DNA of 64,000 bases from an uncultured Candidatus Melainabacteria bacterium (lineage in GTDB: Bacteria > Cyanobacteriota > Vampirovibrionia > Gastranaerophilales > Gastranaerophilaceae). Shown here piece by piece: positions 5,004-64,000 of this stretch. The notes under the pieces were generated by a model, which saw nothing but the letters and a program-made list of their open reading frames with translations, did no database searches and was not told the DNA's origin. Numbering within the stretch: position 1 is the stretch's first letter; each line of letters begins with the position of its first letter. Where the stretch lies: contig CATNBA010000002.1 of NCBI GenBank assembly GCA_950096985.1, positions 1-64,000 of the forward strand, in the 5' to 3' direction. Made by a program: the position numbers and the translations under genes.

Positions 5004-5734
5004 TTATATTTTGAAAGGATAATTATCCGGAATTTCCCAGCTGTTTTCCATAATCAATTTTGTACATTTACTAATTGCATTATTATCTTCAGGAGTTAAG
5101 GTTCCGTTTTCTCTTTTGAATGGAAAAACATCGGAACAATACTTATTTGGTCCTTTTGTTCCGTTAATATCAATTAAAACCTGATTAGTGTACCATATTT
5201 CTCCTGTAGCACTATATGTATTTTTGGGGTAAAAAACAACGGTTCCATCTGCCAACTGAAACAATAATTCATCCTTTCCTGTATAAACATGCCATTGTGC
5301 ACCACTCCATTGTTGTCTGAAATTGCCGTTAGTAGTTGGATATCCGCAATCCAGCATATCTTTGCATACCCTAGAACCTCTAAAATAAGGATGTACATAA
5401 ACTTCCTAAAAAACATTCAAATCAAGTGCAGCATTATTAGGCCAATCCTTTTGAGGACCGTTATCAAGTTCAGATAATCGAAAACCATTGTTGATAGTTG
5501 AATAAGCTTTTTTTAATCTTACAACAAGTTCTTGCTTCTTATGATTTTGAATAAGCGTTGGTATAGTTAAAGCTGCAACGACACCAATAATTCCTAAAGT
5601 AATTAATACCTCTGCAAGAGTAAATCCCAAGTGTGCCGCGTGACCTGTAACACGGCTGTTGCGTGAAATGTCGAAATTAATTTTTACACGAGCATCCTGT
5701 CGGGGGGGGGGCACTCAATGATGAATCTTAACAT
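5004..5734 (-). pseudogene. Prepilin-like surface protein gene 1, broken by poly-C frame offset and an internal TAG
   Basis: The ATG at 5734 has an AGGAG eight bases upstream and a good promoter, but ten C follow the leader codons and the frame then ends at TAA after 16 codons (MLRFIIECPPPDRMLV). The prepilin frame (GFTLAEVLITLG, the PilD-type cleavage and methylation signal) is open from the tract to a TAG at 5406-5408. It then continues in the same frame without stops to 5004. The track shows the two halves as 5406..5714 and 5004..5357. Joined, they give a protein of about 240 residues ending in NGTKGPNK and DNYPFKI, like prepilin gene 2. Eleven C would restore the ATG frame at the tract, but the TAG would remain. 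The GTG at 5714 is too far from the ribosome site to be a good start. Probably a decaying phase-variable pilin-like gene. Confidence 0.8.
5702..5711 (-). repeat. Homopolymer tract, ten C on the coding strand, in prepilin gene 1
   Basis: Ten consecutive G on the plus strand, between the leader codons and the GFTLAEV signal of prepilin gene 1. At length 10 the ATG frame is lost. Lengths 8 or 11 would join the ATG frame to the prepilin frame. Confidence 0.95.
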
Positions 5735-18826: not shown

Positions 18827-18855
18827 TTGAAATATTCATGAAAATGTTTTATAAT
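18827..18855 (+). promoter_or_regulatory. Promoter of prepilin gene 2
   Basis: TTGAAA at 18827-18832 and TATAAT at 18850-18855 with a 17-nt spacer, starting just after the aroE stop. AAAAAGGAG follows at 18861-18868, seven bases before the ATG. Confidence 0.85.
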
Positions 18856-18875
18856 AATTAAAAAGGAGTTGTATT

Positions 18876-19582
18876 ATGAATTTACAAGAAAAACTAAATA
18901 CCTTCGGGGGGGGGGCGCTTATCCGCTTGTAGGATTTACTCTTGCAGAAGTTTTGATTACTTTAGGAATTATAGGTGTAGTTGCGGCATTAACTTTGCCA
19001 AGTTTGATCCAAAATTATAGAAAACAACAGACTATTACAGGATTAAAAAAGGCTTATTCTGTTATAAATCAGGCAATGAAACTTTCTGAAATTGAAAATG
19101 GTCCGTATGAAACGTGGGAATCAGGTGCAAATATTACACCAAGGGCGTACATTCAAAAATATTTTTTACCTTATTTTAAAGGTGCACATTTATGCGATAC
19201 TTATCAAACCTGCGGATTCAAAAGTAATGCCCCTTATAAAACTGTTATAGGAACGCAGTCAACTGCGACCTTAACATATGAACATTATAGAATTCCATTT
19301 ATTACAGAAGACGGAATAATGTATAGTATTTCTGTTAAGGCAGATAATCGTAATGATGAAGGTATTATGATTGATGTAAACGGCTCTAAAGGTCCGAATA
19401 AAGTAGGAGTAGATTTCTTTAATTTTTATAGAACTAACAATGGAATTGTTCCTTATGGTGTTGGTTTAAGTATTGACGAGATTGATGCAAGTGTAGCCAA
19501 TGATATAAATTGCTATGCATGTGCGGCTAAAATAATTAAGGATGGCTGGCAAATAAAAGATAATTATCCGGTAAGGTTTTAA
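18876..19582 (+). CDS. Prepilin-like surface protein 2, out of frame at a poly-G tract (phase-OFF)
   Basis: The ATG at 18876 has an ideal AGGAG and promoter, but with ten G the frame reads MNLQEKLNTFGGGALIRL and stops at TAG. The prepilin frame, open back to a TTG at 18869 (the track's start), carries GFTLAEVLITLGIIG, a hydrophobic helix of about 20 residues, and a C-terminal domain with NGSKGPNK, DGIMYSISV and DNYPVRF. The TTG overlaps the ribosome site and is a poor start. With eleven G the ATG would give a leader of 20 residues ending AYPLVG before FTLAE, a normal prepilin. Family role: prepilin peptidase substrate assembled into type IV pilus or type II-like filaments. The strong signals point to a translational on/off switch rather than decay, because the remaining 200 codons are intact. 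Confidence 0.8.
18906..18915 (+). repeat. Homopolymer tract, ten G, in prepilin gene 2
   Basis: Ten consecutive G between the leader codons and the prepilin signal. The ATG frame needs 8 or 11 G to enter the prepilin frame; 10 gives early termination. Confidence 0.95.
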
Positions 19583-63398: not shown

Positions 63399-64000
63399 AT
63401 GATTAAGTATTACAAAAACAAACTCCTCTCAAACCTTCGGGGGGGGGGCACTTATCCGCTTATGGGATTTACTCTTTCAGAAGTGTTAATTACACTTGGC
63501 ATAATTGGTGTTGTTGCAGCTTTAACTATGCCAACTCTTATTGCTAAGCAGAAAGAGAAAGAAACTGTAGCAAAATTAAAAAAAGTTTATTCTACATTAA
63601 GTCAAGCATTATTATCTGCAATTGCGGATTATGGAACAGTTGATGAATGGGGTTTAGTGTCATCAAATACTGGTGAAATTAATGATGATGGGCTGAAAGT
63701 ATTGGAACACGCAGGTATGAATGCGCTTGCCGATAGATTGCATAAATATATAAAAAGTGATATTCTTACAACCGGCTGGGATAAAGATGTTGTTCTTGTA
63801 AATATGCATGGAACACCTCTTGATCAGTGGTATGACAAGGGAGAACCAAATGCTCTCAGGTTACCTGATGGGACCATATTTATAATGGGACAAATTACTA
63901 CAAATTCATTATGCTCTAATCCTGATTTAAAGTCAGGCGGATATTGCTCTACTATTGTAGTGTGGTTTCCTCCCAAAAACAAGCAAAGGGTTGAAGGGAA
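63399..64000 (+). CDS. Prepilin-like surface protein 3, in frame through a ten-G tract (phase-ON), cut by window end
   Basis: Not in the ORF track because it runs off the window. ATG 63399 with AGGAG seven bases upstream. The leader MIKYYKNKLLSNLRGGG TYPLMG (23 residues) crosses ten G in frame into FTLSEVLITLGIIG, the prepilin peptidase site and hydrophobic helix. About 200 residues are visible with no stop, including the family-like DGTIFIMG and a Cys pair (LCSNPDLKSGGYC). It would be processed by a PilD-type peptidase and displayed in a pilus or pseudopilus-like fibre. Promoter, ribosome site and tract position match prepilin genes 1 and 2, which are out of frame. The C-terminus lies beyond 64000. 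Confidence 0.88.
   Translation, partial: MIKYYKNKLLSNLRGGGTYPLMGFTLSEVLITLGIIGVVAALTMPTLIAKQKEKETVAKLKKVYSTLSQALLSAIADYGTVDEWGLVSSNTGEINDDGLKVLEHAGMNALADRLHKYIKSDILTTGWDKDVVLVNMHGTPLDQWYDKGEPNALRLPDGTIFIMGQITTNSLCSNPDLKSGGYCSTIVVWFPPKNKQRVEG
63439..63448 (+). repeat. Homopolymer tract, ten G, in prepilin gene 3
   Basis: Ten consecutive G encoding part of RGGG in the leader of prepilin 3. The same length as in genes 1 and 2, but here it keeps the ATG frame open. Confidence 0.95.

Follow-up and report, generated by a model that had tools for sequence, protein, structure and literature searches.

A poly-G tract in a prepilin leader as a probable phase-variation switch, one of about 40 in a Gastranaerophilales genome

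In gene 2, the second of three prepilin genes in the window (the whole 64,000 nt stretch of DNA analysed here), a tract of ten guanines stands between a well-placed start codon and an intact prepilin frame that this start does not reach. With a probability of roughly 0.8, the tract is a contingency (phase-variation) switch operated by slippage during replication, the consensus sequence displaying its common OFF state. This reading draws on the anatomy of the locus, its repetition across the genome, a fixed open phase, purifying selection on OFF genes and differences in tract length between orthologues.

Anatomy of gene 2 and of its counterparts in the window

The neighbours of gene 2 are a shikimate-dehydrogenase gene and, on the opposite strand, genes for MacB-like ABC transporters. 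Its elements are as follows.

18827–18855, + strand: sigma-70-like promoter, TTGAAA-17-TATAAT, 11 of 12 consensus matches (suggestive only)
18863–18868, + strand: ribosome-binding site AAGGAG, read in the sequence, 7 bases from the ATG at 18876
18869–18871, + strand: TTG in the prepilin frame, touching the ribosome site without a spacer; not a plausible start
18876–18932, + strand: dead-end ORF at tract length 10, translated as MNLQEKLNTFGGGALIRL and a stop
18906–18915, + strand: G10 tract, the proposed slippage switch, with an open frame at 11 or 8
18917–19582, + strand: intact prepilin frame, beginning AYPLVGFTLAEVLITLGIIGVVAALTLP..., with a DUF6613 match and an N-methylation motif below cut-off

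An earlier note on this DNA had described ideal expression signals driving an 18-codon dead end, and each of its components can be read here: from the ATG at 18876, the ORF runs through the G10 tract and ends at the TAG at 18930–18932. Promoter-like sites are equally common in shuffled sequence, and the promoter assignment is graded accordingly in the list. Frame analysis also bears out the statement that the prepilin frame is free of stops to 19582 and is served only by a TTG overlapping the ribosome site. That codon (18869) was rejected as a start, as it abuts the Shine–Dalgarno (SD) sequence, and no in-frame start with a ribosome site occurs between the G10 tract and the prepilin motif. When nothing but the assumed tract length is changed, the start opens 47 codons at 9, 18 at 10 and 235 at 11. 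Over the same 667 bases the two wrong frames contain 27 and 23 stops, and the prepilin frame is uninterrupted up to its end, with 216 codons open counted from the motif.

Slipped-strand replication would thus add or remove a G, with a tract of 11 (or 8) joining the SD-ATG in frame to the prepilin, and a tract of 10 or 9 ending translation early. The predicted prepilin-peptidase cleavage site lies after the Gly at 18932–18934, downstream of the tract, and extra Gly or Pro codons should therefore not reach the mature subunit.

With regard to the product, the mature part carries the processing motif GFTLAEVLITLGIIGVVAALT, the key positions of which are invariant in 12 homologues; the G/A-F-T-L-x-E processing and methylation motif is accompanied by a hydrophobic helix. 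Pfam places DUF6613 above its cut-off and PF07963 (N_methyl) below (16.5 bits against 21.2), and a profile search of the PDB matched GspG, PilA and geopilin chains over the N-terminal helix. The predicted model consists of a long N-terminal helix (residues 9–61) and a beta-rich head (mean pLDDT 81). A fold search of the PDB with this model returned no match at E < 0.001, such that the label 'pilin' rests on the N-terminus. A prepilin peptidase (Peptidase_A24) is encoded on the same contig beyond the window (G000:C2:77156-77509), and T2SSE matches indicate that the genome encodes T2SSE-type ATPases; the leader would presumably be cleaved and the subunit assembled into a fibre. Of the homologous contigs found, most are labelled Candidatus Gastranaerophilales, suggesting membership of this lineage for the organism.

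G-runs of at least 8 form three tracts in the window (9 overlapping matches, versus 0.15 expected from shuffles), all of which sit just upstream of prepilin motifs. Those outside gene 2, with their genes, are listed below.

63399–64000, + strand: prepilin gene 3, in frame (ON) at G10 and extending past the window end
63439–63448, + strand: G10 tract of gene 3, read in the sequence
5702–5711, − strand: C10 tract of prepilin gene 1, with the ATG at 5734–5732 and the dead-end peptide MLRFIIECPPPDRMLV followed by a stop
5406–5627, − strand: prepilin gene 1, with its motif at 5627 and an in-frame TAG at 5408–5406, 73 codons after the motif

Gene 1 is OFF in the same phase as gene 2 and is additionally truncated by its TAG; from its sequence, it may be decaying.

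Tract-bearing prepilins in the genome and the genus

The genome (1.65 Mb) yields 45 N-methyl motif matches, and a tailored profile recovers about 55 prepilin-motif genes; the gene set was taken from this profile, a regular expression having proved too strict (24 hits). There are 49 G/C tracts of at least 8 (38 of 10, 6 of 11, 2 of 9, 2 of 12 and 1 of 8), 40 of them located between an SD-ATG and a prepilin motif and the other nine in or near other genes. Among the 40 genes the tract is G in 27 and C in 13, encoding GGG or PPP, and is found in all three codon registers. Their leaders span 13–37 aa, with 29 genes OFF and eight ON, and the dead-end peptides are uniform at 12–29 aa. In tract-less prepilins, by comparison, the leader is short (median 5 aa), and 11 of 12 have their SD-ATG in frame, a difference in in-frame starts from the tract genes with a Fisher p of 2.5e-5; one tract-less paralogue (L055) is without a start. 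If the switch operates as proposed, about 40 scattered prepilin genes would mostly be OFF at the commonest length (10) and turn ON with one extra base, leaving each cell to make a few pilus-like subunits drawn at random from many.

A homologue of gene 2 at L095:1469-1501 has an interrupted tract (CCCCTCCCCC), is out of frame and is apparently locked OFF. G/C tracts also occur in long frames other than prepilins (L046:5788, L050:2561, L068:2533, L031:2559, L181:6436, L214:5721 and L137), of which, by eye, one is glycogen synthase-like and one MotB/OmpA-like; these frames may be phase variable too. In two related genomes used for comparison, G011 and G001, several genes scored as having neither tract nor start possess tracts with longer leaders, and tract counts there are thus a minimum. 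Leaders in both (e.g. L183, L187, L205 and L247) often have a palindrome-like CTACGCACGTAG segment directly before the tract, and some are 50–80 residues long or longer, the sequence that separates their tract from the motif resembling dispersed repeats.

Across 33 genomes of the genus there are 2080 tracts of at least 8, with a median of 67 and a maximum of 179 per genome; 1621 (78 %) have a length of 10, 150 of 11 and 148 of 9. The pattern is present in 29 of the 33, among them some assembled into 5 to 20 contigs. Four genomes, G003, G023, G025 and G004, are almost without G/C tracts, G004 having 66 matches to the gene 2 protein but four tracts; these four make a natural counterpart for comparison with tract-rich genomes. 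A further genome, G026, has an odd spectrum, its 82 tracts of at least 8 including 12 of 10, 15 of 11 and 5 of 9, and most being of 8 or at least 12. Within the family, most other genera have few tracts and some have many; at two loci read in another genus, a prepilin likewise follows the tract. Tracts are almost absent from the remaining families of the order.

The sharpness of the length distribution at 10 counts against phase variation, as does the near-total lack of frames that open at 9, a length that drift alone would permit. Mutation rates from Campylobacter jejuni (PMC8224891, Table 2) give a computed resting distribution with its peak at 9 (43 %), followed by 24 % at 10 and 3 % at 11; for the present tracts we assume a mutational resting peak at 10. 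Assemblies of mixed populations would report the commonest length, sharpening a broader distribution at the cell level. Why so few genes are open at 9 does not follow from consensus lengths, 9 being as rare as 11; selection to keep the ON state rare and common descent of the leaders are our guesses. Every one of the 33 genomes has mutL; mismatch repair is therefore not obviously lost, which likewise counts against the switch, and its loss was rejected as a cause.

Open phase, selection and competing explanations

The tract length that opens the frame is 11 (or 8) in 30 of 40 genes in the genome itself, in 62 of 63 in G011 and in 28 of 30 in G001, departing from a one-third expectation with binomial p-values of 8e-8 to 1e-28 that are nominal, the genes being related. 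A minority phase, open at 10, accounts for nine of the 40, gene 3 among them. The earlier note had allowed for an indel in the leader of gene 2 rather than in its tract, on the grounds that at ten G it reads LRGGG exactly as gene 3 does; this now appears less likely, as the minority phase belongs to gene 3, and gene 2 shares the one found in most genes. When loci were sampled from the whole genus according to tract length, the frame was open at 8 or 11 in 11 of 14 with a tract of 9, in 19 of 22 with a tract of 10 and in 13 of 21 with a tract of 11. The frame relation is therefore constant whilst the tract changes without compensation, as predicted for a length switch and not for a fixed programmed slip.

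G001 and G011, two species about 9 % apart, align over 174 kb at about 91 % identity. Among their 15 syntenic G/C tracts, 4 show a length difference, of exactly one base, and none carries a substitution. A/T runs of at least 8 in the same alignments have a substitution in 30 of 56 and an indel in 5 of 56. The dN/dS values are 0.05–0.21 for seven orthologous pairs with both copies out of frame, and 0.03 for one pair with tracts of 10 and 11, i.e. OFF and ON. Out-of-frame genes are thus maintained and, judged by these substitution ratios, are under purifying selection. In the 10-base frame a stop comes early in every gene (0–8 codons past the tract in the genome itself, 2–11 in G011 and 2–14 in G001), and in the 9-base frame it falls at random, up to 50 codons away. 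These early stops suggest that 10 is a long-standing OFF state, although the relatedness of the genes would weaken any p-value.

Of the 17 N-gaps in the G001 assembly, 6 are no more than 60 bases from a tract, where 2 % would be expected (p 7.5e-7). At some joins the tract is repeated within 14–18 bases at differing lengths, in some cases with N between.

L207:10055: tracts of 11 and 10
L212:5738: tracts of 10 and 9
L205:14635: tracts of 13 and 11
L213:2770: tracts of 10 and 9

Such gaps and doubled tracts hint at mixed lengths in the reads, with poor coverage or repeats being other possible causes.

The chief competitor is a fixed slip site, in which RNA polymerase adds a G at G10/C10, or the ribosome shifts by −1, and every cell produces small amounts of each prepilin from an out-of-frame gene. 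The dominance of exactly 10, the same +1 need in most genes and the contrast between the early stop of the 10-base frame and the random one of the 9-base frame all speak for it. Programmed frameshifting or transcriptional slippage goes with a constant tract and a constant shift, however, and here the shift differs at 9, 10 and 11: at 9, 11 of 14 loci would need −1 or +2, and at 11, 13 of 21 would need nothing. Moreover, six genes of the genome are in frame at 10, the one-base differences between orthologues alter the tract itself, and the use of three codon registers and of either G or C is unsuited to a single ribosomal slip mechanism. We consider such a site unlikely. It is less probable still that the tracts are truly 11 and ON, having been shortened to 10 by short-read assembly. 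Most genes are indeed in frame at 11 and all the genomes are assemblies of unknown method, but tracts of 11, 12 and 13 are present in the same assemblies, some genes that open at 10 have a tract of 11 and so are OFF in the opposite direction (three in the genome itself and five in the genus sample), and the pattern recurs in the assemblies of few contigs.

Decay of gene 2 to a pseudogene after a chance frameshifting indel would have a parallel in the second lesion of gene 1 and in the lost start of L055. The length of its open frame against the stops of the other two, the dN/dS values of pairs with neither copy in frame, and a promoter and SD that look intact render this very improbable. The earlier note had favoured a reversible OFF state over old decay, a view strengthened by recurrence in about 40 genes of the genome and hundreds across the genus, by an open phase that stays at 11 at tract lengths of 9, 10 and 11, and by the dN/dS values and the in-frame starts of tract-less paralogues. 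It had also proposed that orthologues all carrying the same out-of-frame ATG would tell against that state; at the consensus level this is nearly what is seen, but there are orthologues and paralogues that a tract of 11 puts in frame. Least credible of all is that the short ORF is a regulatory leader peptide, stalling at GGG or PPP, with the prepilin started separately. The uniformity of the dead-end peptides would suit it, but an in-frame SD-start after the tract occurs in 0 of 40 genes in the genome itself, 4 of 67 in G011 and 2 of 34 in G001, and the prepilin frame has no stop between the tract and the motif. A restart after the short ORF was rejected on the same count in the genome itself.

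Known systems and implications for the lineage

The tract genes share several features with contingency loci: a homopolymer inside the frame with its length setting ON or OFF, a tract that is pure and far above chance expectation, and a length that varies among relatives in which the gene itself is undamaged. Among the closest likenesses is that to Neisseria opa (PMC3745409), in which many scattered surface-protein paralogues each have their own repeat in the leader-coding region and are independently ON or OFF by frame. The opa repeat is the pentamer CTCTT, however, in about 11 genes for an outer-membrane adhesin, whereas the present set has mononucleotide G/C tracts in about 40 or more type IV prepilin-like genes; it works alike, but with neither pentamer nor Opa protein is not a member of that family. 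Poly-G/C tracts inside the frames of pilus-related genes are also known from the Neisseria phasome, where pilC encodes a pilus-associated protein in two copies and not the pilin (PMC5953494). In pilE/pilS the pilus surface is likewise varied, but by recombination with silent copies (PMC5953494), whilst here whole genes with their own starts would switch by frame. Campylobacter jejuni loci resemble the present ones in having G/C tracts of about 8–12, frame switching and a bias to 9–10 (PMC4965091, PMC8224891); they differ in that here one gene family dominates, the open phase is shared and lengths lie much more sharply at 10. Well-studied Neisseria have 15–19 poly-G tracts per genome (PMC5953494) and C. 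jejuni 29 poly-G/C loci (PMC4965091), against the median of 67 here, the length cut-offs being somewhat different.

No paper linking Gastranaerophilales or Vampirovibrionia with phase variation was found in the open-access literature searched, which is weak evidence of novelty; pilin is mentioned in few Melainabacteria papers there, one of which reports pilA/B/C/T/D genes. Contingency loci are a known kind of element, and it is their placement in prepilin leaders, their very large copy number and the shared phase, one step from open, that appear unreported for this lineage. We would give even odds that this is one of the largest phase-variable repertoires known, composed mostly of prepilins, in which dozens to perhaps more than 100 scattered genes per cell rest OFF at 10 behind a clean early stop, one slip from ON (11), each cell displaying a private, sparse combination of subunits.

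Gastranaerophilales are non-photosynthetic relatives of cyanobacteria, and those of the gut are widespread and mostly uncultured. The switches would plausibly benefit the cell by diversifying its surface in the face of phages, immunity or changing surroundings to which it attaches. Standard annotation would call such pilin genes broken, as it is the OFF state that the consensus displays. If the proposed switch is real, the main surface variability of gut Gastranaerophilales would be a stochastic pilin repertoire, and the lineage would offer a natural case for studying the part of selection in fixing a resting phase for so many switches in parallel.
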